A stretch of DNA of 45,042 nt from a virus: the IMG/VR virus record IMGVR_UViG_3300028562_000004, positions 1 through 45,042 of that record. The stretch is one strand, 5' to 3'. Each line of letters starts with the position of its first letter. The stretch's first letter is position 1. Made by a program: the position numbers and the translations under genes. The notes under the pieces are model-generated. The model made no database searches. It saw only the letters and a program-made list of their open reading frames with translations, and was not told the DNA's origin. Shown here piece after piece: positions 11,452 to 43,772 of this stretch.

Positions 11452-11481
11452 GGTGGTTCCTTGGTTGGTTGGGCAATGGGG

Positions 11482-11530: not shown

Positions 11531-11584
11531 CAAAAGGGACCAAAAAGTCCTGCCGGGAGGTAAAAACAGGACCAAAAAGAGGGC

Positions 11585-11630: not shown

Positions 11631-11732
11631 ACCCCTATACCAGTTACCCCTCATGGGTCCTGGTTGGATCACGGTTTGATCCTGTGCAGACGCTCCGCAT
11701 CGTCATGCAAACGGAGGTCAGCCCAGGCCCGG

Positions 11733-12389: not shown

Positions 12390-12495
12390 GATGATGGTGT
12401 TCCTGGTGAATGCTCCTAGATGTGTAGGGAGCTGGAGGAGTGCAGTTGCCGATACGGTGCAGTGTTTTGTTGGAAGGCGCGTTGCCTTCTCGGAC

Positions 12496-12524
12496 GCGGC
12501 CGCTCGCTGATGAAGCGGCGGCCG
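12496..12524 (-). terminator. GC-rich inverted repeat
   Basis: GCGGCCG (12496-12502) and CGGCCG (12519-12524) flank a 16-base loop, giving a strong hairpin a few bases after the stop of the gene at 12532-12906. No clear U tract. The surrounding 142-base gap (12390-12531) contains nothing else recognised. Confidence 0.4.
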
Positions 12525-12531
12525 TCTTGTT

Positions 12532-12906: not shown

Positions 12907-13400
12907 TGATCGATCTCCGGATCCTCCACTGAGGACTTGCTCAGATCGATGATCTCGTCGTCCGGATGGTCGTACGAGTCAGCCACCTTGACTTCGGTGG
13001 CGGCGTCGGCTAGAGCATCCTTCAGTGCAGCCTCGATCTCGTCGTCGGGCTGCGAATTCTGGGCTTCCGCCTGCTCCTGAGCCACGGATGCGCGGCCGGC
13101 ACCGAATGCGTTGCTGTAGATGACAGATTGGAGGGAGGCGCGAACATGCTTGAGACAGGCGTCGAGGTCGTGTTCCACGATGGCCAGGTCTTCGTACACG
13201 ATCTTCGCGATCATGGAATCGGGTCCCTGAGCGCCACGCGGGCTCAGGCCGAGAGTGAGACCCTTGCCGGGCTCGAACCACGAGGCCAGCGCCAGGGGAT
13301 ACTTCGCGAGGAACGCGGCCTGCGCCGCAGGCCGCGCTTGTTGAGCTGCCTGTTGCTGAGCTTGTTCGGCGGTTTGATCTTGAGTCGATTCAGTGGTCAT
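12903..13400 (-). CDS. Hypothetical Gln/Ala-rich and acidic protein, 165 aa
   Basis: Start at ATG 13400 (MTTESTQDQTAEQ) behind CAGGAATACTGAAC; the frame opens at 13439 but without a ribosome-binding site. N-terminal 28 residues are Gln/Ala-rich, the middle is compact (ASWFEPGKGLTLGLSP, AIVEHDLDACLKHV), and the C-terminus is acidic (DDEIEAALKDALADAATE, DDEIIDLSKSS). A GTAAATA box lies 43 bases upstream. Function unknown. Confidence 0.55.
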   Translation of the reverse strand: MTTESTQDQTAEQAQQQAAQQARPAAQAAFLAKYPLALASWFEPGKGLTLGLSPRGAQGPDSMIAKIVYEDLAIVEHDLDACLKHVRASLQSVIYSNAFGAGRASVAQEQAEAQNSQPDDEIEAALKDALADAATEVKVADSYDHPDDEIIDLSKSSVEDPEIDQ

Positions 13401-28534: not shown

Positions 28535-29614
28535 ATGAGCAAGATCAAGACCGCAGAAGAGCTGACGGTGGACAACCTGATCTGCCGGCACTACGCAGGC
28601 AGCCGGTCCTACGGCACGAGCCTGCCGACCAGCGACGTGGACATCCGGGGCCTGTTCGTGGCCGACCCGATCCACGTCCGCACCCCATTCTTCCCAATCC
28701 GCGAGGCCAATCTCGCTGCCGAGCAGGACACCGTCCTGTACGAGCTGAGCCAGTTCATGGACTTGGCGCTGAAGTGCAACCCGAACGTGATCGAGACGCT
28801 ATGGGTCGACCAGAGTGACGTCATCGTCGACAGCCCGGCCTACCAGATGCTTCGCGCCGCTGCACCGCTGCTCCTTAGCAAGAAGATCGCCTTCACGACG
28901 AGCGGCTACGCCCTGTCGCAGCTGAAGCGCATCAAGGGCCACAACCGCTGGATCGCCAACCCGCAGCCAGAGCGCCGGCCACAGGAGCGCGATCACGTGT
29001 CCATGATCCATAACTTCACGACCACCAAGATCTTGAAGTTCAACATCGAGGACTGGAACGAGGGTCACCGTCTCGTACCCTTTGGCCACAACGTGTTCGG
29101 CCTGTACAAATTCGAAGGTGAGCGCCGCTGCGACCAACCCCATCGCCTGTACGACGGCGTTGGTGTCCTGATCACCGACTATGACGGCAAGGTCCACGAG
29201 CTCCCGGCTCCTCTGATGCTGGTCCAGTTCCACAAGCAGCAACACGACGAGGCGTCCACCGTCTGGGAGAACTACTGGCGCTGGAAGCGTGAGCGCAATG
29301 CCACACGCTCGGCGTTGGAAGAGGCCCACGGCTACGACACGAAGCATGCTATGCACCTGGTCCGCCTGCTTCGTATGGGCGCCGAAGCATTGGAGACCGG
29401 CGTGGTCAACGTGCGGCGTGCCGACGCCGAGGAACTCCTGGCCATCCGCAACGGTAAGTGGACCTACAACGAGGTGGTCCAGTACGCGGACCACATGGAT
29501 GCCCACATCCAACAGTCGCTTTATCCAAAGAGCGATCTTCGCAAGGCCCCAGACATCAAGATGGCCGCCCGTCTGATGCTTGAAATCCAGGACATGATGT
29601 GGAGCCGGACATGA
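28535..29614 (+). CDS. Predicted nucleotidyltransferase (RlaP/YcgL-like), 359 aa
   Basis: Polymerase-beta-superfamily signature at residues 21-40: AGSRSYGT then SDVDIRG (catalytic D34 and D36). The C-terminal KHAMHLVRLLRMGAEALETG is the characteristic helical part of this family. Homologues are often linked to RNA ligases in repair cassettes (established association); no RNA ligase is seen here. Substrate unknown. CGGAG precedes ATG 28535. Confidence 0.8.
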   Translation: MSKIKTAEELTVDNLICRHYAGSRSYGTSLPTSDVDIRGLFVADPIHVRTPFFPIREANLAAEQDTVLYELSQFMDLALKCNPNVIETLWVDQSDVIVDSPAYQMLRAAAPLLLSKKIAFTTSGYALSQLKRIKGHNRWIANPQPERRPQERDHVSMIHNFTTTKILKFNIEDWNEGHRLVPFGHNVFGLYKFEGERRCDQPHRLYDGVGVLITDYDGKVHELPAPLMLVQFHKQQHDEASTVWENYWRWKRERNATRSALEEAHGYDTKHAMHLVRLLRMGAEALETGVVNVRRADAEELLAIRNGKWTYNEVVQYADHMDAHIQQSLYPKSDLRKAPDIKMAARLMLEIQDMMWSRT

Positions 29615-30344: not shown

Positions 30345-31169
30345 ATGCACTGGATCCTACAGAACAACCTCTTCCACGAGAAGGCATACCAGACGCTTCT
30401 CGACACGCTTCAGCATCTGGACTTGCCGTATTCGGTTCACAAGGTCATACCTTTCATCGGCGAGTTGACCGAGCCCGAGGCCCCGAAGGTCGACGGTCCA
30501 GTCATCTGCATGGGCTCGTATTCGCTACGGCACGCTGCCTGCAAGCACGGTTGGATTCCAGGAGTCTTCGATCTCGAGCCCTTTGACTTCCAGGTCCAGC
30601 TCAAGCATTGGGGATCCGAGATGTTCAATGCCGACTCGGTTGTTACACGCTTCGCCGACGTGTCCTGGCCTGATGACGCTGAACGCATGTTCATGCGCCC
30701 GACTGCTGATTCCAAAGTCTTCGCAGGCAATGTCTTCGAGCGTGCTGACTTCTTGGAATGGCACCGAAAGGTCTGTGTCCTCGAAGAAGACTTCGGCAAC
30801 TCCCTGACCAAGGACACCCTGGTTCAAGTGGCAGATCCGAAGCACATCTTCGCCGAGTACAGGTTCTGGATCGTCAAGGGCAAGATCGTTAGCGCTAGCC
30901 TGTACAAGCGCGGCCACACCGTCGTCTACTCGGCCTTCGTCGACGAGCGCGTGCATCAGTACGTGCGCGACCGCATTGCTGAGTGGTGTCCCGCCGAGGC
31001 GTTCTGCATCGATGTCGCTGAGCATGTGCCGGCCAACGGCTACTTCGTCGACGACAAGGAGCAGTTTCCGCACATCAAGATCATGGAGATCGGCACGCTC
31101 AATAGCTGTGGCTTCTACGCGTGTGACATTACGAAGCTCGTCAACGCGCTCGAGACAGCATTCGGTTGA
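30345..31169 (+). CDS. ATP-grasp protein (DUF4343/R2K-like), 274 aa
   Basis: Contains FMRPTADSKVFAG, EYRFWIVKGKIVSAS, FCIDVAE and KIMEIGTLNSCGFYACD, the core pattern of the phage-enriched R2K branch of ATP-grasp enzymes, which form C-N or C-O bonds using ATP. Predicted functions for this branch include peptide or small-molecule ligation to proteins or modified bases; the substrate here is unknown. Its position 1.4 kb before the hypermodification-type gene makes a role in base or protein modification worth testing. GGAACC precedes ATG 30345. Confidence 0.7.
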   Translation: MHWILQNNLFHEKAYQTLLDTLQHLDLPYSVHKVIPFIGELTEPEAPKVDGPVICMGSYSLRHAACKHGWIPGVFDLEPFDFQVQLKHWGSEMFNADSVVTRFADVSWPDDAERMFMRPTADSKVFAGNVFERADFLEWHRKVCVLEEDFGNSLTKDTLVQVADPKHIFAEYRFWIVKGKIVSASLYKRGHTVVYSAFVDERVHQYVRDRIAEWCPAEAFCIDVAEHVPANGYFVDDKEQFPHIKIMEIGTLNSCGFYACDITKLVNALETAFG

Positions 31170-31229: not shown

Positions 31230-31946
31230 ATGTCGAGTCCGACTCCCAAGCCCTACCCGCTGCTGTCCGCGGAGCAGATGGCGCACGTCCTGCGCCTGAC
31301 CAGCCCCCACAGCTTCAGCTTCAACATCCGTCGCATGAACGCGATGTACAAGCTCCCGATCAACACCGAGCCGTCGCTCTACAAGCTGCACAAGCCGAAC
31401 GGCGAACCCGAGTCGGCGGTCCAGCGCATGACCGGCTTCCTGAAGACGTTGCAAGACGAGTGCGACGAAGGCCATGAGATCATGGCCCGTCTGCTGATCA
31501 TCCAATCCCGTGACAATGAGCGTAAGTACGACAAGGCTGACGTCGTGAGTGCTGACAGCCTGGCTCGCGAAGCACTGCTGGACTGCGGCGGCCGTGACAT
31601 GGCTCAAGACAAGGTGACCAAGGTCTTCGAGTTCTCCGACCTCGCCTTGCACGACCTGGAAGAAGCCAAGAAGGACGTCCTCACCGACATCACCGACTGG
31701 CTCGGCGACATCATGGTCTACTGCCGCAGCGAAGGCATGAAGTTCGGTCTCCCCATCGAGAACGGCCTCGAAGCCATCATGGGCAGCAACATGACGAAGC
31801 TCGGTCCAGATGGTATACCCAAGCATGACGCGAACGGCAAGTTCTTGAAAGACATGTCTTCGTTTATTCCACCAGAGCCGGCCTTGAAGACGACACTCTG
31901 GGGGAACGCGAGCGGCTTGGTCTCTGCTGAAACTCCCAAGGAATGA
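31230..31946 (+). CDS. MazG-like nucleotide pyrophosphohydrolase, 238 aa
   Basis: All-alpha NTP pyrophosphohydrolase that hydrolyses (d)NTPs to monophosphates. The metal-binding pattern begins at QDECDEGHE (E77, E80, E83) and continues in DITDWLGDIMVY (D157, D160). The distinctive SNMTKLGPDGIPKHDANGKFLK region (186-207) is typical of phage/PRA-PH-like members. The 60-residue N-terminal extension is unusual. Could cleanse or reshape the dNTP pool, for example by removing an unmodified nucleotide, which fits the base-modification genes nearby (inference). Confidence 0.8.
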   Translation: MSSPTPKPYPLLSAEQMAHVLRLTSPHSFSFNIRRMNAMYKLPINTEPSLYKLHKPNGEPESAVQRMTGFLKTLQDECDEGHEIMARLLIIQSRDNERKYDKADVVSADSLAREALLDCGGRDMAQDKVTKVFEFSDLALHDLEEAKKDVLTDITDWLGDIMVYCRSEGMKFGLPIENGLEAIMGSNMTKLGPDGIPKHDANGKFLKDMSSFIPPEPALKTTLWGNASGLVSAETPKE

Positions 31947-32370: not shown

Positions 32371-32565
32371 ATGGCTGGACAAAGACTCGAATACACCATC
32401 GTCTGGGCCAGTTGGCTCGACGAGCTGGCATCTGCTGTTAACGACCACATCTCCCGTGGTTGGGAGCCACTAGGCGGCCCTGGCACCACCCCTGATCCTG
32501 AGAGCTACGACGTCTTTCAAGCACTGACCCGAAAGGTCCCCGATGAAAACGCAAACGCAAGCTGA
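32371..32565 (+). CDS. DUF1737-like small protein, 64 aa
   Basis: Pattern EYTIVWASWLDELASAVNDHISRGWEPLGG...VFQALTRK matches the DUF1737 family found in phages and bacteria; function unknown. AGGAGCCGAC precedes ATG 32371. Overlaps the next gene by 23 bases. Confidence 0.65.
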   Translation: MAGQRLEYTIVWASWLDELASAVNDHISRGWEPLGGPGTTPDPESYDVFQALTRKVPDENANAS

Positions 32566-33535
32566 GCTGGTCCCCGCATTCGAAGGTCTCTGCTGCGACT
32601 GGACGAGCACCAAGTACAAGGATCGCCTGCGCGCCGCCGCCCGCTTCTGCGCCGAGCGCCACATGATCTACGTGCGTCGACGTGAGGGACAACCATCCCC
32701 ATGGACGAAGGATCCGATCCTTCGTTCGTCCAGGTTTTGCAACGTGTATAGAGAAATCGACAAGGTTACTCTTGAGATCATGGATCAGTGGCTGAAGCCG
32801 CAGCTGACAGGAAACAACCCGGCCATCGCTGCGCTGGTCGGCCGCGTCATCAATCATCCTCCAACATTGAATGCTATGAGGGCCGTTGGAATCGATTTCC
32901 GTGTTGGCAGTGGCCAAGCCAAAGCATGGAAGCTGTTCCAGTCTATCGTGGTCAAGAAAGGCAAAGAGGGGAAATTGGTTACGGGCGCTTACGTCGTGAA
33001 CACCGTCTTCCCTCGTCATCATGAAAAGATCACTGGGTCGAAGGCTGACTACCTTGCAAACTTCTTCTTGCCGGAGGTATGGTCACATAGGGAACAGCTG
33101 GACGAAGCCCTGAGCGCCGGCACCTACCGAGGGATGCTCGACGCGTACCGCAAGGTTCACGGCGTCGGCCTCTTCATCGCGAACCAGGCAGCATGTGACC
33201 TGACGTACACCAGTCTTCTGCGCAAGGCCAAGGACATCAACGAAATTTGGTCGCCGGGTCCCGGGACTGCGGCTGGTATCCGCCGCATCGTCAATGACTA
33301 CAGCCTTGCACAAGGCTCAGTCGCAATGGACAAGGTGCTTACGCAGTACGCACAGGATCTGAATCACGAGTTGTCACATCACCGGCTCTGGTCCACGTCA
33401 ACCAAGGACATGCACACGCACCTAGTACCCTTGTCGAATCCTAACGCGAGCTCTAGCTTGTGCGAAATCTCCAAGCACTTTGGGATGGCTATGGGCGAAC
33501 GGGATCGGTTGAAGAACAGCTACAAGGCGAGCTGA
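32543..33535 (+). CDS. Helical DNA hypermodification-family protein (HMUDK_hel / alpha-GPT-PPlase superfamily), 330 aa
   Basis: Residues 38-80 show ERHMIYVRRREGQPSPW, then TKDPIL..SRFCNVYREIDKVT, the hallmark of the helical domain shared by phage 5-hydroxymethyl-dU DNA kinases and alpha-glutamyl/putrescinyl-thymine pyrophosphorylase-type enzymes. In phages such as phiW-14 and SP10 these proteins activate 5-hmdU in DNA and attach an amino acid or polyamine (established). There is no P-loop in this protein, but an APS-kinase-like P-loop protein lies at 40378. All-helical throughout; length is typical. Exact step (kinase partner or amino acid:DNA transferase) cannot be decided by eye. Confidence 0.72.
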   Translation: MKTQTQAELVPAFEGLCCDWTSTKYKDRLRAAARFCAERHMIYVRRREGQPSPWTKDPILRSSRFCNVYREIDKVTLEIMDQWLKPQLTGNNPAIAALVGRVINHPPTLNAMRAVGIDFRVGSGQAKAWKLFQSIVVKKGKEGKLVTGAYVVNTVFPRHHEKITGSKADYLANFFLPEVWSHREQLDEALSAGTYRGMLDAYRKVHGVGLFIANQAACDLTYTSLLRKAKDINEIWSPGPGTAAGIRRIVNDYSLAQGSVAMDKVLTQYAQDLNHELSHHRLWSTSTKDMHTHLVPLSNPNASSSLCEISKHFGMAMGERDRLKNSYKAS

Positions 33536-33537
33536 TC

Positions 33538-33875
33538 ATGGCACTCAACCAGATCGCTCGCGTACGCGGCGTGCTCAAGTGCTACTGCCGCTACGAGTGC
33601 CGCAAGTGCGGTGGCACGCAGGCCGGTGAGAGCTTCGAGGTGCAGATCTATACACACGATGCGACCTCAATCCTCGGCCCGAGTTCTACGACCGGGTCGC
33701 TGAGTGCCTGGAGCGCGTGGGCCTGCCCGTCGAGATCAAGAGCGAGCACTACGAGGGCCCAATGGCTCCGGATGTCATCGTGACCGAGACGGTCTACACA
33801 GAGGGCCACACCTACGTCGGTGATCGACTGGTCGACCACATCGGTGACGATGCTGACTACTGGCAAATGGGCTGA
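33538..33875 (+). CDS. Zinc-ribbon-like protein with apparent -1 frameshift
   Basis: Frame 1 from ATG 33538 (MALNQIARVRGVLKCYC) gives CYC..ECRKCGG, a four-cysteine zinc ribbon, and stays coherent to about 33650, then degenerates to Ser/Arg-rich sequence and stops at 33783. The -1 frame from about 33640 reads as a normal protein (PEFYDRVAECLERVGLPVEI, then APDVIVTETV, VGDRLVDHIGDDADYWQMG) to the TGA at 33873. The two halves together make a sensible protein of about 112 residues. No classical slippery heptamer was seen, so this is a broken gene, a sequence error or an unusual recoding site. Confidence 0.55.
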
Positions 33876-33890
33876 GCCCAGGAGAACGAA

Positions 33891-34619
33891 ATGGAATACA
33901 CCGAACAGCAGCTCAAGAACATCGCCACGTCCGAAGAGCTGACCAAGAAGCTGGCTGACGAGGTGCTGACGTGGCTGAAGATCACGTTCGACTCGCAGTC
34001 GATCCTTCCTCGCATCTTGGCACCACTGACCCACCCGAAGCAGCAATGCTGGGAAAACCAGGGTGCCGAGTTCACCATCAATCTGGCGCCGGCCGATCCG
34101 TCCGTCGGCACGATGGTCGAGCAACTGATCACCGCCTTCGAGTCCCTGATCGTGGTGGGTGAGCGCAAGGCCCTCGAACGGCTACGACGCAAGGACCGCA
34201 CATTGACCGAGGCCGTTTTCAGTCATCAGTTGATGCACGACCTGATCGCGTTGTCAACGGCCCCGCACTCCGTCCTCTTGCCGAAACCCCAATTCTTGAT
34301 CGGCTCCCAGTTCTGGGGAGATCTGGTTGGGTCCAGGGACTCGAATAGCCACACGACCGTTGAATCGGACTACTCAAAAGTCCTCCAAGGCAGGCTCGGC
34401 TCCTACGATGGGGCCGACATCCACAGCGATTGCCACCGGCATCCTGAGCACCGAGTCCTCGCCCACAATGAGGCCCTGTTCGTGACCGACACGTACCGGA
34501 CCGGTGTCTACAGCGCGGCCTTCAGTGTCGAGACGCTGGCGCCCGGCCTATTCGAGCTTAAGAGCGAGATCGGTTGGGAAGTCGACTCTCATCAGGCCAT
34601 GTTCATCACGCTGGCTTGA
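33891..34619 (+). CDS. Hypothetical protein, 242 aa
   Basis: CAGGAGAACGAA precedes ATG 33891. Helical N-terminus (EQQLKNIATSEELTKKLADEVLTWLKI), then AEFTINLAPADPSVGTMVEQLITAFESLIVVGERKAL, and a beta-rich C-terminus. Not recognised. Confidence 0.5.
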   Translation: MEYTEQQLKNIATSEELTKKLADEVLTWLKITFDSQSILPRILAPLTHPKQQCWENQGAEFTINLAPADPSVGTMVEQLITAFESLIVVGERKALERLRRKDRTLTEAVFSHQLMHDLIALSTAPHSVLLPKPQFLIGSQFWGDLVGSRDSNSHTTVESDYSKVLQGRLGSYDGADIHSDCHRHPEHRVLAHNEALFVTDTYRTGVYSAAFSVETLAPGLFELKSEIGWEVDSHQAMFITLA

Positions 34620-34621
34620 TC

Positions 34622-35128
34622 ATGGTACGCTCCCATCATTTCGCGCGCTTCGTAGAGTGGAAGGACCGGCAAGCGTTCTTCGGCGTCATCACCGAGATGC
34701 GGCACCACATGATCCGCAGCGGTGACTTTGACATCAAGGCTCTGCGCGCCCGCCTTCTCGCCGATACGCATCCGAGCTCTTATTCACGGATCCACGGCAT
34801 CTACCTTGGTAGTCACGTCTTCGAGGAGGTGATCGAACGCCGCTTCGCCAACGAGATGGAGCACCAACACAGTCTGAGCCGTGAGCCCGGTGCTCGATGC
34901 CCGATCTGCTTCTTCACTGCGTGGAGGAGCAAGGCCCAGCGCACCGTCATCTCCTACGAGTGCGACCTGACAGATGCGTACTACAGCCGGGCTTTCATAC
35001 TGGAGTGGCTGACCGAAGCCGACGTCCTCCTCACCCAGCTGGAGCAGAACCTGCTGTGGAACAAGCGATACGGCCGGGCTCCAGGCTGTAAAGAATCGAA
35101 ACTGCGCCACGTCGGCCGCTACCGATAA
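34622..35128 (+). CDS. Hypothetical protein, 168 aa
   Basis: Start ATG 34622 (MVRSHHFARFVEWKDRQAF), two bases after the upstream stop; the longer frame from 34574 overlaps the previous gene. Mostly helical and His/Arg-rich, with a CPIC pair in the middle and a basic C-terminus. Not recognised. Confidence 0.5.
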   Translation: MVRSHHFARFVEWKDRQAFFGVITEMRHHMIRSGDFDIKALRARLLADTHPSSYSRIHGIYLGSHVFEEVIERRFANEMEHQHSLSREPGARCPICFFTAWRSKAQRTVISYECDLTDAYYSRAFILEWLTEADVLLTQLEQNLLWNKRYGRAPGCKESKLRHVGRYR

Positions 35129-35138
35129 AGAGACCCTC

Positions 35139-36581
35139 ATGAAGATCTTGTTCACCATCCTTGAAATCCTAGACTACGGCGGCATCACGGCCGACCTGGA
35201 GCTCAAGTGCCGCGGTCTCAAGGAGGCAGGTCACGAGGTCAAGGTCGTGATCCTCCGCCGAGCCAAGGCACCGCATTCCATCCGCAAGACCCTGATCGAA
35301 GGTGGGCCTGCCGGCACCTACCCCTCGTCTTTTGGCACCTACAAGGGTCGCCAGATCATGGCGAACACCGAGAAGGGCTGGTACTGGCTCCCCGTCCTCG
35401 GCTACGACAGCGACGAAGGGATGGCGAACTGGAAGCGCATTGCCAACAAGTTCGACATGATCTTCCACGAGATCCCCGGCCCGAACCCTGACCCGGCTGG
35501 CCGTTGGCTCGAGCTCTACGACGTGAAGCCGCCGCAGATCATGATCGCCCACGACGCGCACTTCCGCGAGATGTACCCCCACATGATCGATGTGGCGCCG
35601 AAGCTCAAAGGCATCGCCTGCACGACCCCGGCCGGCTATATCGGTCTCGAGTGGATGCCGACGTATCGCGCCTTCATCGGGGCACCGCATCCCGTGCTGG
35701 ACTGGGACTCGATGCCCAGGTGGAACCAGCGCAAGCCCGTGGGCGTCGCCGCCCACATGTGGAAGGCGTGGAAGCACCAGGACATGGTGGTCCAAGCGGC
35801 ACCGCACCTGACCAAGTCCAAGGTCATCATGACAGGCGACGGCATCGAGCGCCGCTACATGATGAGTAAGGATAAGTGCCCCAAGGAGTTCAAGGGGGTC
35901 TGGAAGCGCGGGCTCGACAGCGGGAACATGGCGTACAAGGGTCTGCTGACCCCAGACCGCCTGTTCTCCATCTACCAGCGCAGCCGCGTCATGGTCGACA
36001 TGTCGTGGAGCGACAAGTTCAACGGGCTTGGCAACCACTTCAACCGCTCGATCATCGAGGGCTACAATAACGGCGTGGTCCCCATCTGCGTCGGCATGAA
36101 CATGAAGGACGACAACACCCAGCGTCGTCTGTTCAAGGGCGGAGTCACGCACGTCGAGGTGCCACACACCATCACCCCGAAGGAACTGGCCGAGGTGATT
36201 GACGAGACGTGCCACATGCACCGCGACGACGCGATGGAGATGGTGACCAGGGGGCGCAAAATGCTGATGAAGTACTTCGCCTACAGCACGACGGCCACGC
36301 AGTTCATCGACCTCGGCCGGCAGAAACCCTGTGGTGTCTACCCAAAACTGGAACTGGGCAAGGCCAACCTCATCATCGCCGAAGCCCGCGATATGAAGCT
36401 GGCGAACAAGCCCACGGCCACGATCAAGGCCATGATCGTCAAGAAGCTACGTGAGCGCGAGGAGCGCATCGCCAAGAAGAACGGTGTGAAGGCTCCTCCC
36501 AAGAAGAAGGTGATGCGCGGTTACAATCCGCTGACCGCCAAGAAGGCGGCAGCCAAAGCCAAAGCCAAGGCCCAGAGATGA
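35139..36581 (+). CDS. GT-B glycosyltransferase with lysine/alanine-rich tail, 480 aa
   Basis: GT4-like layout: N-terminal Rossmann start MKILFTILEILDYGGITADLE, central donor-binding region (KPVGVAAHMWKAWKHQDMVVQAAPHL, VIMTGDG), then MAYKGLLTPDRLFSIYQRSRVMVDMSW and NRSIIEGYNNGVVPICVG, where the E of SIIEGYN corresponds to the donor-sugar acidic residue. The last 50 residues are strongly basic (REREERIAKKNG, then KKAAAKAKAKAQR), like a histone-H1 tail, suggesting that the acceptor is or is close to DNA. Sugar donor and acceptor are not known. Within 1-2.5 kb of UDP-galactopyranose mutase, so UDP-galactofuranose is a candidate donor. Confidence 0.75.
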   Translation: MKILFTILEILDYGGITADLELKCRGLKEAGHEVKVVILRRAKAPHSIRKTLIEGGPAGTYPSSFGTYKGRQIMANTEKGWYWLPVLGYDSDEGMANWKRIANKFDMIFHEIPGPNPDPAGRWLELYDVKPPQIMIAHDAHFREMYPHMIDVAPKLKGIACTTPAGYIGLEWMPTYRAFIGAPHPVLDWDSMPRWNQRKPVGVAAHMWKAWKHQDMVVQAAPHLTKSKVIMTGDGIERRYMMSKDKCPKEFKGVWKRGLDSGNMAYKGLLTPDRLFSIYQRSRVMVDMSWSDKFNGLGNHFNRSIIEGYNNGVVPICVGMNMKDDNTQRRLFKGGVTHVEVPHTITPKELAEVIDETCHMHRDDAMEMVTRGRKMLMKYFAYSTTATQFIDLGRQKPCGVYPKLELGKANLIIAEARDMKLANKPTATIKAMIVKKLREREERIAKKNGVKAPPKKKVMRGYNPLTAKKAAAKAKAKAQR

Positions 36582-36862
36582 GACCCCCGCAGGATCACGA
36601 GCAGAAGTTCTACTATGGCCGAGGGTGTTCTGCACCTCAACTAGAAGGTGCCATGGCGATCCACACATGGACAGTCGGTCACTCCACTTGCATCATCGAA
36701 CTAAACGCCGGCATCAGTCGGGGTGACATCGGTCGGGTGAGCTGGCTGGACAAGCGTCCTGGCTCCAGCCAGGAGTGGGTTACGGTCTTCGACGAGAAGA
36801 CCATGGAGCGCCTTTCCATCACGTACGACGACCCTCGCTTTACGCCGAAGGACTCTGTATGA
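36578..36862 (+). CDS. Hypothetical protein, 94 aa
   Basis: ATGA overlap with the glycosyltransferase. A later in-frame ATG at 36653 has an AGAAGG site and may be the main start (MAIHTWTVGHSTCII). Beta-rich throughout. Not recognised. Confidence 0.5.
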   Translation: MRPPQDHEQKFYYGRGCSAPQLEGAMAIHTWTVGHSTCIIELNAGISRGDIGRVSWLDKRPGSSQEWVTVFDEKTMERLSITYDDPRFTPKDSV

Positions 36863-37113
36863 GCCGCCGCACTCAGCAAGAGATCGAGAACCGCCAGGAG
36901 TCACTGGCGGCCCAGGTCGAGAACGCGAAGCTGTCCTGCGCGAAGACCGCGCTGGCTAACCCCTTCGTCTACCACGAGGGCGTGAACCTTAGCAACGCTC
37001 GTGCTGCTCTGGTCAAGGCCCAGCACGAGCTGAACGTGGCTCAGGCGGCATGGGATCGCCTCATTGCTCCGGCCAAGGGCTGGGCACCCGACCCCTTCAA
37101 GGAGAAGAAATGA
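36859..37113 (+). CDS. Hypothetical coiled-coil protein, 84 aa
   Basis: Start ATG 36859 in an ATGA overlap (MSRRTQQEIENRQESLAAQ). Long helix with heptad-like hydrophobics (SNARAALVKAQHELNVAQAA) and basic C-terminus. Ends in AAGGAG, the ribosome-binding site of the next gene. Not recognised. Confidence 0.5.
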   Translation: MSRRTQQEIENRQESLAAQVENAKLSCAKTALANPFVYHEGVNLSNARAALVKAQHELNVAQAAWDRLIAPAKGWAPDPFKEKK

Positions 37114-37553
37114 CCGTCATCGCGTGGGATGGCCGCTCGCTGGCAGCGGACAAGCGTATGTGCAGTGGGAATGCCATCTACACAGTGTCCAAGCTCACAA
37201 GGCATGGCCACTACTTGATTGGGGGTGCTGGCACTGCTGCGACGGAGCTTCAACTCATGGAGTGGTTCAAGTCAGGGGCCGATCCGGCGACATTTCCTGA
37301 GGCATGTCGAAGCTACGACTATACTGGTCGCCTCCTTGTAGTCAACACCAAAGATGGGAGTGCGATGCGATTCGACAGCGGACCATATCCACTCAAGCTC
37401 GACCGAGGCCCAGCCGCCATAGGGTGCGGAGATGAGGGCGCCATGATTGCCATGGCCTGTGGCAAGACGGCTGAGGAAGCTGTAAAGATCGTATCTCAGT
37501 TCAACTCTATGTGTGGCAACGGCGTAGACGTCCTCCACGCTTTCGAAGGATAG
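37110..37553 (+). CDS. Ntn-hydrolase / proteasome-like (HslV-type) peptidase, 147 aa
   Basis: Begins MTVIAWDGRSLAADKRM: Thr2 would be the N-terminal nucleophile after Met removal, followed by the DG..LAAD turn typical of HslV and 20S beta subunits. Further on comes GHYLIGGAGTAATELQLMEWF and GDEGAMIAMACGKTAEEAVKIVSQF, matching the family's later helices. Phages carry such stand-alone proteasome-like proteins of unknown substrate. Length (147) is slightly shorter than HslV (about 175). ATGA overlap with the previous gene. Confidence 0.72.
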   Translation: MTVIAWDGRSLAADKRMCSGNAIYTVSKLTRHGHYLIGGAGTAATELQLMEWFKSGADPATFPEACRSYDYTGRLLVVNTKDGSAMRFDSGPYPLKLDRGPAAIGCGDEGAMIAMACGKTAEEAVKIVSQFNSMCGNGVDVLHAFEG

Positions 37554-37554
37554 C

Positions 37555-38706
37555 ATGAAAATCGCCGTTATCGGCGCCGGCTTCTACGGCGCGACCCTAG
37601 CCCGTCTCGTTGCCGAAGCCGGGCACGAAGTCATGGTCTACGAGGCGGAGTCGTCGATCGGTGGCAACGCCAAGTCCCACTTCGATCCTAGGATCGGCAC
37701 TCATGTCTCGGACTACGGTGCCCACATATTCCACACGAACAGCGACCGCGTGTGGGACTTCGTGTCTCGCTTCGCCACCTTCAACGGCTACCGGCATTAC
37801 GTCAAGGGTTGGACTGGTACGAAGATGGTGGACCTGCCGTTCAACCTCAGCCTCTTCTCCCAGGTCCTGGGTATCACCACGCCTGCCGAGGCCCACACCT
37901 ACTTCAACCGCCTGGCCAGCCTCCAGAAAGAGAGCTATCGGCACGACGTGTCGACGGTCGAGGGCTGGTGTCTGGCCAACATCGGACCCGACCTCTACGA
38001 GACGGTGGTCAAGGACTACACGGAGAAGCAGTGGGGGCGTGCCTGCTCCGACCTCCCGGCCTCGATCATCCAGCGCCTCCCGATCCGTTTCACGTACGAC
38101 AACACGTACTTCCACAATGCGAAGTACCAGGGGATGCCTCTCAACGGTTACTCCAACATCATGGAGCAGATACTGAACCATCCATCCATCGTGGTGGTCA
38201 AGGACGCCGACGTTGGGCTTACCAATCTCTCGCTGATCGAAAAGAACGTCGACCGCGTGTTCTTCTCGGGTCCGGTCGACCGTCTATTCTCCTACGAAGA
38301 GGGTGTTCTGTCGTACAGGGGTCTTCGCTTTGAAGACGTCCTCGTCCCAAAGAGCGCGTCGCAAGGGGCGCCGGTGATCAACAACGTCGGTCGTGTAGTT
38401 CCTGGCATCGCACGGAGTGGCAGTACTCGAACCATCGAGCACAGTCTGTTCTACCCTGAGGCCCGCACCGAGAACCAGACGCGCACGCTGCTGACCCGCG
38501 AGTACCCAGCTCAGTGGGCACCTGGTGACAGGCCGTACTATCCGATCCGTGACGAGCAGAATCTTGCCCTGCACGAGCGGTACACCAAATTGTTGGATCA
38601 TCACCACCCGAAGGTCCGCCTCGGTGGACGCCTCGGGACCTATATGTACCTGGACATCGATCAAGCGGTTGGGCAGGCGATGTCCCACGCCAAGGAATTC
38701 CAATGA
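37555..38706 (+). CDS. glf: UDP-galactopyranose mutase, 383 aa
   Basis: Flavoenzyme converting UDP-galactopyranose to UDP-galactofuranose. FAD-binding IGAGFYGA at the N-terminus, then DYGAHIFHT, FNLSLFSQV, YTEKQWG, FTYDNTYFHNAKYQGMP, all characteristic of UGM; the C-terminus has the flavin/substrate region LGGRLGTYMYLDID. Full length (E. coli Glf is 367). Overlaps the sulfotransferase by four bases, so they form one transcription unit. Indicates that the phage makes a galactofuranose-containing product, on DNA, virion protein or host glycan. Confidence 0.92.
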   Translation: MKIAVIGAGFYGATLARLVAEAGHEVMVYEAESSIGGNAKSHFDPRIGTHVSDYGAHIFHTNSDRVWDFVSRFATFNGYRHYVKGWTGTKMVDLPFNLSLFSQVLGITTPAEAHTYFNRLASLQKESYRHDVSTVEGWCLANIGPDLYETVVKDYTEKQWGRACSDLPASIIQRLPIRFTYDNTYFHNAKYQGMPLNGYSNIMEQILNHPSIVVVKDADVGLTNLSLIEKNVDRVFFSGPVDRLFSYEEGVLSYRGLRFEDVLVPKSASQGAPVINNVGRVVPGIARSGSTRTIEHSLFYPEARTENQTRTLLTREYPAQWAPGDRPYYPIRDEQNLALHERYTKLLDHHHPKVRLGGRLGTYMYLDIDQAVGQAMSHAKEFQ

Positions 38707-39491
38707 TCATCAGCCAACGCCACGAGCTGGCTTTCGTACACAACCCTAAAGTGGGCGGCACGTCCATCCGCCAAGCCATCGGCCACCTCCACGACGGGCC
38801 CATCCCGTTCTGGCACCAGGACTGGGACCCGAACAGCGATCGCGTCGTCGATCTGGCCCATCTCACGGTCGACCAGTGGGACGACCCCGATGTGATCCCG
38901 GCCAACTACTTCACGTTCGGCTTCGTGCGGAACCCGTACACACGCTTCTGGTCGGCATTGAACGAATTCCTGCGCCGGCACGGCCAGTACATGCCGATCA
39001 CCAAGGATAACATCTCCATGATGCTGACGCCGGCCAACATCCGGTACGACTGGCGCTTCGTCCACTTCTGTCCGCAGCACGCGTTCTTCTACCAGGGCAA
39101 CCGCTGCCGCGTTGACTTCATCGGTCGTCAGGAACGGATGGAGCGCGACTGGGCTGCCGTCGCCGCGTTGACCGGCAACGTGATGCCAGCAGCGCTGCCC
39201 GAAGAGAAGGCCCGCGCCACCACGGCCGATCTGTACGACCCGGACCTCAAAGACCAGGCGTTTGTCCAGAATCTGATCAACCGGCTGTATCTCAAGGACT
39301 TCCAGCTGTTCGGTTATGACATGGTCGGCAACCTCGGCATCCGTGACGTACACGCTGATCGCATCGAAGTGATTCACAATCCGCTCCTCGTGCCGTGGTT
39401 CCACGGTCAAGAGCTCGGCGCCCTCTCATTCACGCCTGGTGAACGCAAGTCCCTGGAGGCACAACGTGCAACTATTCATCCTCAGTCGTGA
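38703..39491 (+). CDS. PAPS-dependent sulfotransferase, 262 aa
   Basis: Transfers sulfate from PAPS to a hydroxyl, usually of a carbohydrate. The 5'-phosphosulfate loop is FVHNPKVGGTSI at 11-22 and the 3'-phosphate-binding motif is FVRNPYTRFWSAL at about 74-86, with VDFIGRQERMERDW later, as in sulfotransferase-2-type enzymes. Such genes are uncommon in phages. Adjacent to UDP-galactopyranose mutase upstream and a glycosyltransferase downstream, so the acceptor is probably the same sugar. ATGA overlap with the mutase stop. Confidence 0.82.
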   Translation: MIISQRHELAFVHNPKVGGTSIRQAIGHLHDGPIPFWHQDWDPNSDRVVDLAHLTVDQWDDPDVIPANYFTFGFVRNPYTRFWSALNEFLRRHGQYMPITKDNISMMLTPANIRYDWRFVHFCPQHAFFYQGNRCRVDFIGRQERMERDWAAVAALTGNVMPAALPEEKARATTADLYDPDLKDQAFVQNLINRLYLKDFQLFGYDMVGNLGIRDVHADRIEVIHNPLLVPWFHGQELGALSFTPGERKSLEAQRATIHPQS

Positions 39492-40377
39492 CCGTTGGGA
39501 CTACAGTCCCACCGTCGACACGATGCCAGCCGAGGCCATGACCTTCGTGACCGTCATGGTGCCGAAGGACCAGTACAAGCAGTACCGTGCGAGCCCCAAC
39601 TTCAAGGGCCTGACCATCGAGTGCTGGCCCGACTACGTGGACTGCGTGCCTAAGAAGCGGCGCTATCTCTACGAGAAGGTGAAGGGTGCGTACATGGTGA
39701 TCGACGACGATCTTGGTATCCAGGTCTGGTCGAGCAGGGATCAGAAGTACGTGCCGGCCAACTCGAAGCCCACGTTGTTCATGTCGAAGCTGGATCGCAT
39801 GTGGGATCGCCTCGACACCGCCGACATCGGCACCGTCGGCGCCACCAACACCTTCATGGCGAGCAAGCGCATCAAGGAGAACGGTGGCCAGACGGTGTGG
39901 CCTGGTCTCGTTCCCTTCTGCTTCGCTGGCTTCGGCGCCGACCGACCCAAGATCAAGTGGCGTACCTTCTTCTTCACCGACATCGCTATGCCGATGCAAA
40001 TCATGAAGCAAGGTGGCACCTCGGTCACTGACTTTAGCATCGCCTACTCGATGCGGAACAACAAGAAGCTCCAGACTACTGGCACCAGCGTCTACCGCGA
40101 CGAGGCGACGATCAAGTACAGTGCACTGGCCTTGGCGAAGACGGTGCCCGGCCACGTCTTCGGCCTGAAAGATACTGGCAACAACGGCGGAGGCTGGTCG
40201 CTGCAGAAGACGTTCACCAGGCCGAACCTCAGTCGTAGCAACCAGTGGATCTCCGGATTTCTAGACCAGGAGGGACTAACCCATGTTCCACGTACTGTGG
40301 ACCTGACGTTGAAAACGCCGATGGCCGAGCTTTTCGCGAACTATAAAGAGAGTTGGGAACAAGCCCAGGAGGACTAG
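39466..40377 (+). CDS. GT-A glycosyltransferase, TET-associated-glycosyltransferase-like, 303 aa
   Basis: Begins with GTG 39466 seven bases after GGAGG (MQLFILSRDRWDYSPTVDTM). Followed by FVTVMVPKDQYKQYR, KKRRYLYEKVKGAYMVIDDD (D80-D82 is the metal-binding DxD), and TDIAMPMQIMKQGG. This order resembles TAGT enzymes, predicted to glycosylate hydroxymethyl-pyrimidines in phage DNA; the match is by pattern and is not certain. It overlaps the sulfotransferase by 26 bases and precedes the kinase and thymidylate-synthase-like genes, a context that fits DNA-base glycosylation. Confidence 0.65.
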   Translation: MQLFILSRDRWDYSPTVDTMPAEAMTFVTVMVPKDQYKQYRASPNFKGLTIECWPDYVDCVPKKRRYLYEKVKGAYMVIDDDLGIQVWSSRDQKYVPANSKPTLFMSKLDRMWDRLDTADIGTVGATNTFMASKRIKENGGQTVWPGLVPFCFAGFGADRPKIKWRTFFFTDIAMPMQIMKQGGTSVTDFSIAYSMRNNKKLQTTGTSVYRDEATIKYSALALAKTVPGHVFGLKDTGNNGGGWSLQKTFTRPNLSRSNQWISGFLDQEGLTHVPRTVDLTLKTPMAELFANYKESWEQAQED

Positions 40378-40986
40378 ATGCACAACGGATTCAGCGGCAC
40401 GTCGGCAGACGATCTGCCACCCAAAAGCCCCAGCCACGCTGGCCAAGAACGAATGCATGTGACGACCACTGTCATGGCTCCGGCCATCGTGATCCGCGGT
40501 CTTCCAGGCGTTGGCAAGACTACGCTGGCAAACGAGATCGTCCGTCAATTGAGGCGCGGTAGCTGCTCGATCGTCTACCCAGCATTCCACATCAACGCCG
40601 ACGTGGTGCGGGCCAGGCTCAACAGCGACCTGGGCTTCAGTCCCGCTGCCAGAGTGGAAAACGCACGCCGTATTGGCGCCGTGGCGGCAATGGCCCGTAT
40701 CAACGTCTGCGCACCTGTCATCGACTTCGTCATGCCTACCGGCGAGACGCTCGATGCGTTCACCGATGGCTTCGGCGGGAAGGAGTTCTCTGTCTTCACG
40801 CTGAACGGGCCTGCCGATTTCGAGACCCGCTTCGCCGACACCGGCAAGTTGTTCGAGACCGACCCCGTGACTCGTAGTACAAGGCACGGCCCAGCCGACC
40901 ATCGTCAGTTCTACTCCCTCCAACCCTTCGGCCGCGGCGATGTTCAACTCATCGCTGAGACCATCATCCAGCAGGTGTTCAAATGA
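40378..40986 (+). CDS. APS-kinase-like P-loop kinase, 202 aa
   Basis: Walker A GLPGVGKT at 41-48. The sequence HINADVVRARLNSDLGFS (71-88), then RVENARRIGAVAAMARI, closely follows APS kinase (CysC: DGDNVR..LN.DLGFS..DR.EN.RR...VA). The C-terminal half differs from CysC. Two readings: it makes PAPS for the sulfotransferase two genes upstream, or it is a base/nucleotide kinase of the 5-hmdU type feeding the enzyme at 32543. The N-terminal 33 residues are an extra flexible tail. GGAGG precedes ATG 40378; overlaps the next gene as ATGA. Confidence 0.8.
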   Translation: MHNGFSGTSADDLPPKSPSHAGQERMHVTTTVMAPAIVIRGLPGVGKTTLANEIVRQLRRGSCSIVYPAFHINADVVRARLNSDLGFSPAARVENARRIGAVAAMARINVCAPVIDFVMPTGETLDAFTDGFGGKEFSVFTLNGPADFETRFADTGKLFETDPVTRSTRHGPADHRQFYSLQPFGRGDVQLIAETIIQQVFK

Positions 40987-42131
40987 GCCAAGCTACCGTT
41001 CTCGCCATCGCCCCGACCTCCGGTGCCGATTCCGCCCTCCGCCAAGCTGTCGAGATGGCGATCCAAGGTCGTCACACGATCGACATGCCGAGCCGCAACG
41101 GCCCGGTGCGCCGCTTCAACCGCCCGGTCGTCACGTGCTGGACCAACCCGGTGGATCGCATCGTCTGGTCGAAGACGCGCGACGTCAACCCGTTTCTGCA
41201 CTTCATCGAAGCGGCGTGGATGCTTGCCGGCCGCAACGACGTGGAACTCGCGGCGTACCTCGCCCCGAACATGAAGAACTACAGCGACGACGGCGAGACG
41301 CTGCACGGTGCCTACGGCTTCCGTTGGCGCGAGTGGTTCGGCTTCGATCAGCTGACGGCCCTGATCGGCGAGCTGAAGTCCAACCGCGAGACCAGGCGCT
41401 GCGTCCTGCAGATGTGGGACGGCCACGACGATCTGGGCACTGCGCTCAAGGGAGGACGCGATCTTCCTTGCAATACCGCGATCTACTTCGATCCGTGCGG
41501 CGACGAGCTGAACATGACTGTGACCTGCCGCAGTAACGACGCGGTCTGGGGCTGCTACGGCGCCAACGTGGTCCACATGTCGATCCTCCACGAGTACGTG
41601 GCGGCCGTCACCGGCTTCAAGCTCGGCACCTACTACCAGATGTCGAACAACCTCCACTTCTACCTGGAAAACGATGTCACGAAGCGGGTGATGGACTACG
41701 AGAACGCGGACAACGACGTGCTCTCCAAGTGGGACCCGACGAACGCTGAGCAGCTCGGCAGTCCAGCCTTCCTCACCAGCTACGGATTCCCGGCATTCGG
41801 CGGCGAAACGCTGTTCCATGATCTGAACCCCGACCTCAGCGACGAGGTACTGGCTGACGCGCTGAACGACGCGTGCTCCACCTTCGTGGGCAAGGAGCTG
41901 GTCGGCATCAGCGACGGCGAGACCCACTACTTCAACGTCCTGCACGCGATGATGGACGGCTTCACCATCTACAGGACGCAGGGTGCGAACGCCGGCGCCG
42001 AGTACCTCGAGAGCTGTATGGTCCACAGCCAGTGGATCCTGTCGGCCATCCTGTGGCTCAAGCGTCGTCCCAGCTACAAGGTGCCCGTGACCAGTGACAC
42101 GAGCGGCAACCAGCCTGTGACGGGGGCGTGA
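40983..42131 (+). CDS. Thymidylate-synthase-fold enzyme, candidate dUMP hydroxymethylase, 382 aa
   Basis: Nucleotide-binding and catalytic parts are recognisable: RFNRP...DRIVWSKTRDVNPF, LHGAYGFRWR, the catalytic cysteine C163 in DLPCNT, RSND (R183, S184, D186) and a GAN Asn (N195) that would read the pyrimidine as uracil rather than cytosine. LPCN in place of the LPPCH of classic ThyA occurs in pyrimidine hydroxymethylases. Longer than ThyA (264) with inserts and a C-terminal extension. Predicted to make 5-hydroxymethyl-dUMP or dTMP; the former fits the modification genes nearby but is inference. Confidence 0.82.
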   Translation: MSQATVLAIAPTSGADSALRQAVEMAIQGRHTIDMPSRNGPVRRFNRPVVTCWTNPVDRIVWSKTRDVNPFLHFIEAAWMLAGRNDVELAAYLAPNMKNYSDDGETLHGAYGFRWREWFGFDQLTALIGELKSNRETRRCVLQMWDGHDDLGTALKGGRDLPCNTAIYFDPCGDELNMTVTCRSNDAVWGCYGANVVHMSILHEYVAAVTGFKLGTYYQMSNNLHFYLENDVTKRVMDYENADNDVLSKWDPTNAEQLGSPAFLTSYGFPAFGGETLFHDLNPDLSDEVLADALNDACSTFVGKELVGISDGETHYFNVLHAMMDGFTIYRTQGANAGAEYLESCMVHSQWILSAILWLKRRPSYKVPVTSDTSGNQPVTGA

Positions 42132-42478
42132 TGGACACAGCCCATACACGCAAGGTCATTGCCATCACGGTTGGTGATGAGAACTACGAACCCACAAGCG
42201 AGGAGTTGCAGAACATAGTCGAGATGTTCATGAACGCTAAACTCGATCCAGCCGGTGGATTCATCAGTGTCAAATTTCCGTACCGTGCCCGCATTCTTAA
42301 CATCACTGGCAACGAGGCTGTCGTGGCATCAACAGGCTGGCTATCTGACGACGACATCAAGGCGTGTGTCAGCGCCTACACCCAAGTCTCTCTGAATAAC
42401 CTCTTCAACGCACATCCGGAGATCGACGGTGTGGCTGCCTTCAGGGCTGAGCTTGACAAGCGCATGAACCAGGACTAG
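42131..42478 (+). CDS. Hypothetical protein, 115 aa
   Basis: ATG 42131 overlaps the previous TGA as TGATG; a GTG one codon upstream is an alternative. Alpha/beta (VIAITVGDENYEPTSEELQ, FISVKFPYRARILNITG, AAFRAELDKRMNQD). Lower GC than its neighbours, perhaps recently acquired. Not recognised. Confidence 0.5.
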   Translation: MDTAHTRKVIAITVGDENYEPTSEELQNIVEMFMNAKLDPAGGFISVKFPYRARILNITGNEAVVASTGWLSDDDIKACVSAYTQVSLNNLFNAHPEIDGVAAFRAELDKRMNQD

Positions 42479-42481
42479 GCA

Positions 42482-43120
42482 ATGGATCCCTACAAGGTAC
42501 TCGATGTCGAGCCGACTGCTACGATCGAGGAGATACGGCTCGCCTACAAGCGGCTTGCCCGTCAGTTCCATCCTGACGTGAGTACCGAGCCCGACCACGA
42601 ACAGCGCATAAAAGAGATCAACGCAGCCTGGGAAATCCTCGGATCGGAAGATCGGAGAGCCAAGTTCGACTCGACCGGAAGCACGGGCCAGGAGAGGACA
42701 ATCGATGAGGAGGCACTCGATCATCTGACCCGACTTCTTGCCTCGGCCTTGGACAATAACGTACCTGATCCTGTTGAGGCGGCAAACCACCTGATCGTGA
42801 TCAACCTTGCGCAGTCGCACGAATGCACCGCCAACTTGAAGAAGAGAATGGTGGCGCTCGAGGCCTACTCCAGAAGGATCAGGTCCAAGACCAAGGGTGA
42901 TCAGCACGTTGTGGCGGCCCTGATAGCGGATCGGATCAAGGTTTGTCAGAAAGGACTGGAGCAGAACGCTCGTGGTCGAGAAGTTCTGACCCATGCCCAA
43001 CTGTTGCTGACCGATCTCGAGTTTGTTGCCGACACGGTTGTAAACCCTGAGTCGACAATCATCTCCTCCATCGCGTTCAATCCTCAGATCTTCACCATCC
43101 GTTACTCGAACACCAAATGA
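42482..43120 (+). CDS. J-domain (DnaJ-like) co-chaperone, 212 aa
   Basis: N-terminal J domain: MDPYKVLDVEPTATIEEIRLAYKRLARQFHPDV, with HPD at 29-31, then INAAWEILGSEDRRAKFD. J domains stimulate Hsp70 (DnaK) ATPase. The Gly/Phe, zinc and C-terminal domains of DnaJ are missing; the rest is helical and unrecognised. It probably recruits host DnaK for phage replication-complex or virion work, as lambda P/DnaJ precedents suggest (inference). Lower GC than its neighbours. Confidence 0.82.
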   Translation: MDPYKVLDVEPTATIEEIRLAYKRLARQFHPDVSTEPDHEQRIKEINAAWEILGSEDRRAKFDSTGSTGQERTIDEEALDHLTRLLASALDNNVPDPVEAANHLIVINLAQSHECTANLKKRMVALEAYSRRIRSKTKGDQHVVAALIADRIKVCQKGLEQNARGREVLTHAQLLLTDLEFVADTVVNPESTIISSIAFNPQIFTIRYSNTK

Positions 43121-43139
43121 ATAGCAAGGACTGACCAAT

Positions 43140-43772
43140 ATGGATCCCGCATTCACCCTACTCCTGCACGGGGTGGAGACCAAACGTTTCCACACCGTGG
43201 CAACCATCCGCAACGAGACGGTCGGTCATCACCATGGACTGGTCGTCGGCCTCATGGCCATTGCCTACCCATCCATCCGTGCCGACGTGATGCGCTACGC
43301 CGCGCTGCACGATCTGGCCGAGCACGTGACTGGCGATCCGCCGTCAACGGTCAAGCGAGCGCATCCAGAGGTCAAGACAGCATTCGATCTGCTGGAAGAA
43401 AGCGTGTATCGTCAGGCGACGATCGAGATGCCTATCCTCTCGCGATTCGAACACGTCGCATTCAAGCGCTGTGACAACGTGGCCGGCATGATGAGTTGTC
43501 TCAGGGAGTACATGCTTGGGAACACGCCGATTCTCGAGCAGTTCCGGAACTTCCTTTCGTACTACACGTTGCAGCGCGAGGGTGTGACACAAGAGCTGAC
43601 TCTACTCGCGATGAAGGACTACTGGGCCCCATACCTCCAGGGTAACTTGCTGCTCGACAAGCTGGTGTCCGACATGGACCTGAGTGTTGGCGGCAATGGC
43701 TACGCCGAACACTGGACCCCAGCCGTCGCTAGAAAGATGGAAGAGCGCCGCACTGGAATCAGGTTGCTGTGA
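43140..43772 (+). CDS. HD-domain (YfbR-like) nucleotide phosphohydrolase, 210 aa
   Basis: RFHTVATIRNETVGHHHGLVVGL, then AALHDLAEHVTGDPP: R16/H18, H30 area, HD at 57-58, E61 and D66 match the YfbR/5'-nucleotidase branch that also includes the phage dATP triphosphohydrolase DatZ. These enzymes dephosphorylate (d)NMPs or dNTPs. In a hypermodifying phage the natural role would be removing dTTP or dTMP, or an equivalent, so that the modified precursor is used (inference). AAGGACTGACCAAT precedes ATG 43140. Confidence 0.75.
   Translation: MDPAFTLLLHGVETKRFHTVATIRNETVGHHHGLVVGLMAIAYPSIRADVMRYAALHDLAEHVTGDPPSTVKRAHPEVKTAFDLLEESVYRQATIEMPILSRFEHVAFKRCDNVAGMMSCLREYMLGNTPILEQFRNFLSYYTLQREGVTQELTLLAMKDYWAPYLQGNLLLDKLVSDMDLSVGGNGYAEHWTPAVARKMEERRTGIRLL

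Follow-up and report, generated by a model that had tools for sequence, protein, structure and literature searches.

A recurring phage gene cassette that may place a sulfated sugar on 5-hydroxymethyl-uracil in DNA

The closest described relatives of the locus reported here are the thymine-hypermodification systems of phages M6 and YuA (Pseudomonas), MW2 (Bordetella), ViI (Salmonella) and PhiW-14 (Delftia), which have, like it, a dUMP hydroxymethyltransferase, an HD nucleotidase and a protein of the HMUDK_hel (5-hydroxymethyl-deoxyuridine (5-hmdU) DNA kinase helical-domain) family -- a core component common to 5-hmdU hypermodification systems. In those phages the decoration of 5-hmdU is presumed to follow replication, as it is here (PMC6449724). 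The locus lies in the window, a stretch of 45,042 bases from an uncultivated virus (IMG/VR record IMGVR_UViG_3300028562_000004) that covers part of a jumbo phage genome. Its predicted products suggest, with a probability that we would put at about 0.5, that thymine is (partly) replaced by 5-hydroxymethyl-uracil carrying a sulfated sugar. That the DNA bears a sulfate ester, on galactofuranose here and on another sugar in phage phiRSL1, and so contains the first sulfated nucleobase in DNA, is a tentative prediction to which we would give somewhat less than even odds. The cassette reading is supported by homology, motifs, an operon-like arrangement and conserved co-occurrence, from which we infer each catalytic step, DNA as the acceptor, the identity of the sugar and its sulfation.

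A five-component set in nine phage contigs

The named cassette open reading frames (ORFs) are all present, with coordinates exact or a few codons off:

31230..31946, plus strand: MazG-like nucleotide pyrophosphohydrolase, weak and peripheral (phrog_671, 1.5e-10 over 143-218)
32543..33535, plus strand: HMUDK_hel family protein, 330 aa (PF18723, E = 1.7e-31)
35139..36581, plus strand: GT-B-like glycosyltransferase, 480 aa (PF13524, 0.0021, below cut-off)
37555..38706, plus strand: UDP-galactopyranose mutase (UGM), which would supply UDP-galactofuranose (PF03275, 3.3e-55)
38703..39491, plus strand: sulfotransferase of the 3'-phosphoadenosine 5'-phosphosulfate (PAPS) type, with 5'-phosphosulfate-binding (5'-PSB) motif HNPKVGGTS and 3'-phosphate-binding (3'-PB) motif VRNPYTRF (PF03567, 1.9e-15)
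39466..40377, plus strand: TAGT-like GT-A glycosyltransferase with DDD motif, predicted to act on DNA bases; alternative GTG start at 39439 (phrog_842, 4.5e-16)
40378..40986, plus strand: P-loop kinase resembling adenosine 5'-phosphosulfate (APS) kinase; possible later start at 40474 (PF01583, 5.5e-13)
40983..42131, plus strand: thymidylate synthase-fold enzyme of dUMP-hydroxymethylase type, LPCN catalytic Cys163, uracil-type Asn195 (phrog_5131, 3.7e-93)
43140..43772, plus strand: HD phosphohydrolase, YfbR-like, possibly controlling the deoxynucleoside monophosphate pool (PF12917, 1.2e-7)

Single-protein scans of IMG/VR returned one near-identical contig alone, and alignments were then used as queries. 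An HMUDK_hel profile found 80 loci, and whole-contig searches covered 46 records, representing 45 distinct contigs; a Sulfotransfer_2-type alignment found 13 contigs (L- and G-numbers denote loci and contigs of the IMG/VR relatives in the comparison set). The synthase, HMUDK_hel, one or more TAGTs, a Sulfotransfer_2 protein and an APS-kinase-like gene lie within about 11 kb in nine distinct contigs -- the window with its near-identical contig, L020, L021, L022, L023 and L025 from the HMUDK_hel scan, and L100, L103 and L108 from the sulfotransferase scan. Such recurrence of all five components puts their clustering beyond chance. The proteins are typically 30-50% identical to those of the window, and gene order is variable (hel, HMUDK_hel; GTB, GT-B-like; ST, sulfotransferase; APSK, APS-kinase-like; TS, synthase; APH, APH-like kinase; NTPt, NTP-transferase): hel..GTB..UGM-ST-TAGT-APSK-TS..HD in the window, UGM-ST-GTB-TAGT-APSK-hel-TS in L021, APSK-UGM-ST-GTB-TAGT-hel-TS in L025 and L100, and APSK-TAGT-APH-NTPt-TAGT-TAGT-ST-hel-TS in L103, with L020, L022, L023 and L108 similar to the last. 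Across the cassettes the components are constant while the order and the sugar-supply genes change, the supply being modular: UGM plus GT-B (window, L021, L025, L100) or an APH-like kinase plus an NTP-transferase (phiRSL1, L020, L022, L023, L108). L103, one of these carriers of the five-component cassette, is by all signs the cultivated Ralstonia phage phiRSL1; its TAGT ORFs of 255 and 302 aa have the lengths of phiRSL1 B2ZYD7 and B2ZYD6. In a tree of HMUDK_hel proteins eight of the nine cassettes form one clade (100/100), and L108 is a long branch elsewhere, beside another long branch.

The sulfotransferase is mostly specific to modification cassettes. In nine of the 13 contigs from its own scan, synthase, HMUDK_hel and TAGT are encoded no more than about 11 kb away from it, and among the HMUDK_hel contigs it is found in all six closest ones (window, L020, L021, L022, L023, L025) and in 0 of the 39 others. 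An APS-kinase-like gene goes along with it (Fisher p = 9e-7, kinship ignored): the six closest contigs and L024 have one, and so do G027, where the match to APS kinase is strong and full-length, and G019, where the gene lies at a distance from HMUDK_hel.

Hydroxymethylated dUMP and the two branches of HMUDK_hel phages

The thymidylate-synthase fold, LPCN site and uracil-type asparagine that the initial annotation had read at 40983 were all found (PF00303, 8e-19; C163; N195), and by its relationships the enzyme is of the dUMP hydroxymethylase type. Its best PDB match is the hydroxymethylase MilA (1.3e-16), where an aspartate takes the place of Asn195 (asparagine is expected with a uracil substrate), and its closest phage relatives are dUMP hydroxymethyltransferases of the Mesyanzhinovviridae; its identity is 40-42% to MW2 and 50% over 58% to PaMx11. 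That it is an ordinary thymidylate synthase with unrelated neighbours is very improbable: the shared fold and invariant Cys and Asn are also compatible with dTMP synthesis, but, besides its nearness to MilA and the phage hydroxymethyltransferases, it is only 23% identical to the canonical synthase of Achromobacter phage Motura (which matches PF00303 at 1.5e-80), and in the nine cassettes this type of synthase is always accompanied by HMUDK_hel. In L021 the hydroxymethylase gene (10928-12988) has an intein containing an HNH domain (PF14890, 1.2e-15; PF13392).

The HD phosphohydrolase, likewise recognized beforehand, is homologous to the HD protein adjoining the synthase in MW2, Bhz59 and YuA, and its YfbR-like match agrees with that call. 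The MazG-like call retains a single PHROG match and found none in Pfam. Family matches and the nine-contig recurrence together support what had been proposed for the region as a whole, a 5-hmdU-based hypermodification cassette with nucleotide-pool enzymes.

Placement of the 32543 product in the 5-hmdU-kinase helical superfamily was borne out by profile search (PF18723, 110 bits against a cut-off of 25; phrog_2396, 1e-45), and its relatives include YuA gp14, PhiW-14 gp72 and proteins of MW2 and Bhz59; a PDB search with it gave nothing useful. The accompanying suggestion of an amino-acid transferase of aGPT-PPlase type was not sustained: in YuA the amino acid:DNA transferase is gp10, a member of another family (PF18724) lacking in the window and the cassette relatives, and because gp10 is distinct from the HMUDK_hel protein gp14, amino-acid transfer is not implied by the helical protein alone.

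In MW2, YuA and Bhz59 the 5-hmdU DNA kinase (PF18748) is encoded directly upstream of HMUDK_hel. Whole-contig searches found no PF18748 in the window, the near-identical contig G001, the five cassette relatives or L024, and no PF18724, present in YuA, in the six closest contigs or L024. Among the 45 HMUDK_hel contigs PF18748 occurs in nine and PF18724 in eight (mostly overlapping sets). Pfam detects TAGT in 17, to which homology adds the window/L025 type, and TAGT is never found together with either of the other two (Fisher p = 0.0024, kinship ignored). HMUDK_hel phages thus appear to fall into two branches, one of amino-acid and one of sugar type, with the window in the second. In a broader group of contigs (L092, L048, L064 and similar) hydroxymethylase, HMUDK_hel and TAGT occur together, but kinase, amino-acid transferase and sulfotransferase are all missing; these phages may carry plain glycosylated 5-hmdU.

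The core idea of the initial annotation was an amino-acid or polyamine thymine hypermodification of the M6/ViI/PhiW-14 type, which would place kinase and transferase in an unseen part of the genome. The synthase, HMUDK_hel and HD protein do match that system, and the HMUDK_hel of PhiW-14 itself has no neighbouring annotated kinase; against this stand the mutual exclusion just described and the absence of PF18748 and PF18724 from long relatives searched whole (217, 249 and 172 kb), and we give the idea little chance. Because both families are absent from the window and its whole-searched relatives, the decoration is probably not of the M6/ViI amino-acid type; a sugar branch that includes TAGT and a sulfotransferase is a better fit than the amino-acid branch already described.

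In L024 HMUDK_hel, an APS-kinase-like gene, a different sulfotransferase (PF13469-like; 24.4 bits, cut-off 27), the synthase and the HD gene stand in a contiguous row; a scan with this type of sulfotransferase matched only L024 itself. Since in the tree its HMUDK_hel falls among those of the amino-acid branch, the pairing of APS-kinase-like gene and sulfotransferase may have arisen twice.

Sugar and sulfate

UGM and the sulfotransferase had been singled out beforehand as an unusual addition to hypermodification parts, and both find profile support (PF03275, 3e-55; PF03567, 2e-15). UGM scores 187 bits against PF03275, above the cut-off, and 276.7 against TIGR00031, slightly under the cut-off of 303.75. 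The sulfotransferase reaches 58.2 bits against Sulfotransfer_2 (PF03567; cut-off 22), its closest named PHROG is galactose-3-O-sulfotransferase (phrog_3347, 4.4e-18), and the PAPS motifs HNPK..GT and VR.P..R are invariant among six homologs; a PDB search gave nothing useful, and no homolog was found in 50,697 phage records, a set in which phiRSL1 was not retrievable. The GT-B-like protein also has no match in those records, and its orthologs (48-53% identity) adjoin the UGM/sulfotransferase pair in L021, L025 and L100. The match of the 39466 product to phrog_842 is to beta-glucosyl-HMC-alpha-glucosyltransferase, and its homologs, at 18-35% identity, align over an IDDDL motif with D81 and D82 invariant.

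The 40378 product is a P-loop kinase, as had been noted, but of the APS-kinase family (PF01583, 49.6 bits, cut-off 21.1, over the N-terminal half only, 36-124) and not the 5-hmdU kinase family (PF18748), which takes in the kinases of MW2, YuA and Bhz59 but gives no match here. Its clear PDB matches are APS kinases without exception (best 1.9e-8), and it keeps the motif RLNSDLGFSPAARVENARR. In Penicillium APS kinase R66, F75 and R80 contact APS; the equivalent positions do not vary among six family members, and N83 is retained by the window protein only. It is the only small P-loop kinase found across the 61.5 kb of the window and its extension. Specificity of the APS-kinase-like gene for sulfation cassettes was rejected, since the family has > 400 viral relatives. 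A common phage protein (L133-L212) joins an APS-kinase-like domain to an NMNAT-like domain (GRYQPWHEGH and ISAT motifs); in Stenotrophomonas phage Bhz60 such a fusion adjoins a NADAR gene.

Together these proteins would make up the following pathway. The 40983 enzyme would hydroxymethylate dUMP, with the HD protein and the MazG-like protein trimming competing nucleotides, and 5-hmdUTP would then be polymerised into phage DNA. After replication the TAGT-like protein, possibly with the GT-B protein, would transfer a sugar onto the 5-hydroxymethyl group, UGM supplying UDP-galactofuranose; the sugar would be sulfated by the 38703 product with PAPS as donor, the last step of whose synthesis could come from the APS-kinase-like protein. 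The role presumed for HMUDK_hel is recognition or presentation of 5-hmdU in DNA.

Sulfate on the sugar, and not on the base, is suggested because the sulfotransferase borders glycosyltransferase or UGM genes, because its PHROG match is a galactose-3-O-sulfotransferase and because UGM-sulfotransferase neighbours also occur in Rhodobacteraceae. The first two of these points also count against another possibility, that sulfate (or phosphate from the 40378 product) is placed directly on the 5-hydroxymethyl as a leaving group, for which the HMUDK_hel machinery swaps in another nucleophile, paralleling the phosphorylated 5-hmdU of M6 and ViI. In its favour, PF18748 is absent in 7/7 whole-searched contigs, with the APS-kinase-like gene and sulfotransferase in its place, and in L024 this pair lies directly between HMUDK_hel and synthase; the six closest contigs and L024, however, have no detectable amino acid:DNA transferase, and we consider such a scheme improbable.

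Several observations weigh against a sulfated sugar on DNA. The 39466 product scores only 21.0 bits against the TAGT family (PF20691), under the cut-off of 27.5 that TAGT paralogs in L020, L022 and L023 exceed, and its earlier designation as TAGT-like has its backing in this sub-threshold match, phrog_842 and the homologs. Structure models of this protein and the sulfotransferase are poor. For the former (predicted local distance difference test, pLDDT, 58, low confidence) the top viral Foldseek matches are the phiRSL1 TAGT-family proteins B2ZYD7 and B2ZYD6, viral matches being at family level only, with no convincing structural match in the PDB and nothing useful from a PDB search with the protein itself; the AlphaFold model of the sulfotransferase (pLDDT 45) is too poor to use. 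The 40378 product scores 47.9 bits against the NCBI APS-kinase model TIGR00455, far under its cut-off of 138.7, and members of its family are common in phages that have no such cassette, frequently as the NMNAT-like fusion. Because the window covers only part of the genome, genes missing from it may be encoded outside it. Two loci, L099 and L101, have the UGM-sulfotransferase pair without HMUDK_hel; around the L101 pair (G048, 109536-111594) the whole 230 kb is without synthase, TAGT or APS-kinase-like homolog. In Rhodobacteraceae genomes, too, modification genes are not near the UGM-sulfotransferase neighbours. (Two more sulfotransferase contigs without HMUDK_hel, L104 of 62 kb and L110 of 5 kb, may be fragments.)

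One possibility is that TAGT glycosylates 5-hmdU in the DNA while UGM, GT-B and sulfotransferase decorate another glycan -- a host O-antigen or capsule for superinfection exclusion, or a virion glycoprotein -- as the pairs in L101 and Rhodobacteraceae would allow; glycosyltransferase clusters of jumbo cyanophages have been interpreted as surface-polysaccharide modifiers (PMC7824862). We think this unlikely, given that nine of the 13 contigs keep the sulfotransferase near synthase, HMUDK_hel and TAGT through two unrelated sugar-supply variants and that a second sulfotransferase family recurs in L024. It is chiefly because the bacterial pairs and phage L101 carry the UGM-sulfotransferase module without 5-hmdU genes that sulfated-sugar 5-hmdU, the reading we prefer, is held at no higher confidence.

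Setting and comparison with known systems

The window DNA polymerase is 45% identical to those of Burkholderia phages BcepSauron and BcepSaruman and 42% to that of Motura. The near-identical contig, IMGVR_UViG_3300029954_000016, is 99.97% identical, overlaps the window and extends 16.5 kb rightward, with topoisomerase I, a NUDIX protein and ribonucleotide reductase. Downstream of the polymerase, Motura (L004, 15298-23200) encodes a canonical thymidylate synthase together with a 7-deazaguanine cassette (QueC, QueE, TGT-like, GTP cyclohydrolase), and BcepSauron (L003, 30478-31398) a ThyX-family enzyme; in these related jumbo phages DNA-modification systems appear to be exchanged at this locus. 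Between HMUDK_hel and the glycosyltransferases lies a 242-aa protein (33891-34619) whose matches are to the C-terminal portion of capsid families with the HK97 fold (NF042927, 1.3e-6; the major head protein phrog_2522, 5e-6), unexpected at such a location, and directly upstream of UGM an HslV-family/proteasome-like peptidase (37110-37553; phrog_1040, 4e-29). Upstream of the cassette an RlaP-type nucleotidyltransferase (28535-29614; PF10127, 2e-12) and an R2K-clade ATP-grasp protein (30345-31169; PF14243, 9e-12) lie near each other.

If the proposal is right, sulfation and probably furanose sugars would join known DNA-base chemistry, 5-hmdU phages would form two exclusive branches sharing HMUDK_hel, one with kinase and amino-acid transfer and one with glycosyltransfer, and DNA-acting sulfotransferases and glycosyltransferases would be gained as tools. 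Being bulky and negatively charged, a sulfated base could protect against restriction and Cas nucleases. With phiRSL1 by all signs a cultivated carrier, the idea is testable.

Compared with the M6/YuA type, the window lacks PF18748, PF18724 and homologs of the YuA radical-SAM and pyridoxal phosphate (PLP) enzymes, and has instead TAGT, GT-B, UGM, sulfotransferase and APS-kinase-like protein. The 39466 product is akin to the TAGT and beta-glucosyl-HMC glycosyltransferases in family, DDD motif and presumed 5-hydroxymethyl-pyrimidine DNA acceptor, and differs from the TAGT family in falling below its Pfam cut-off; to our knowledge the characterised substrates of these enzymes are 5-hydroxymethylcytosine (5-hmC). 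Bacillus phage SP-15 likewise replaces thymine with a sugar-bearing uracil derivative, a sugar- and phosphate-substituted dihydroxypentyl uracil, and has a carbohydrate-metabolism gene cluster; it differs in its ThyX-type enzymes and UDP-glucose dehydrogenase/glycerophosphotransferase set, and the available portion of its description mentions neither sulfotransferase nor HMUDK_hel (PMC5977210). The literature searched yielded no paper that connects sulfotransferases of phages with DNA modification and no report on DNA modification in phiRSL1, whose dUMP hydroxymethyltransferase was earlier placed near one Mesyanzhinovviridae clade (PMC11946847). That phage (Mieseafarmvirus) shares the five-component cassette with the window, but with an APH-like kinase, an NTP-transferase and three TAGTs in place of UGM and GT-B. 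As far as found, the system is a new version of 5-hmdU hypermodification, and the chemistry predicted for it would be new as well.

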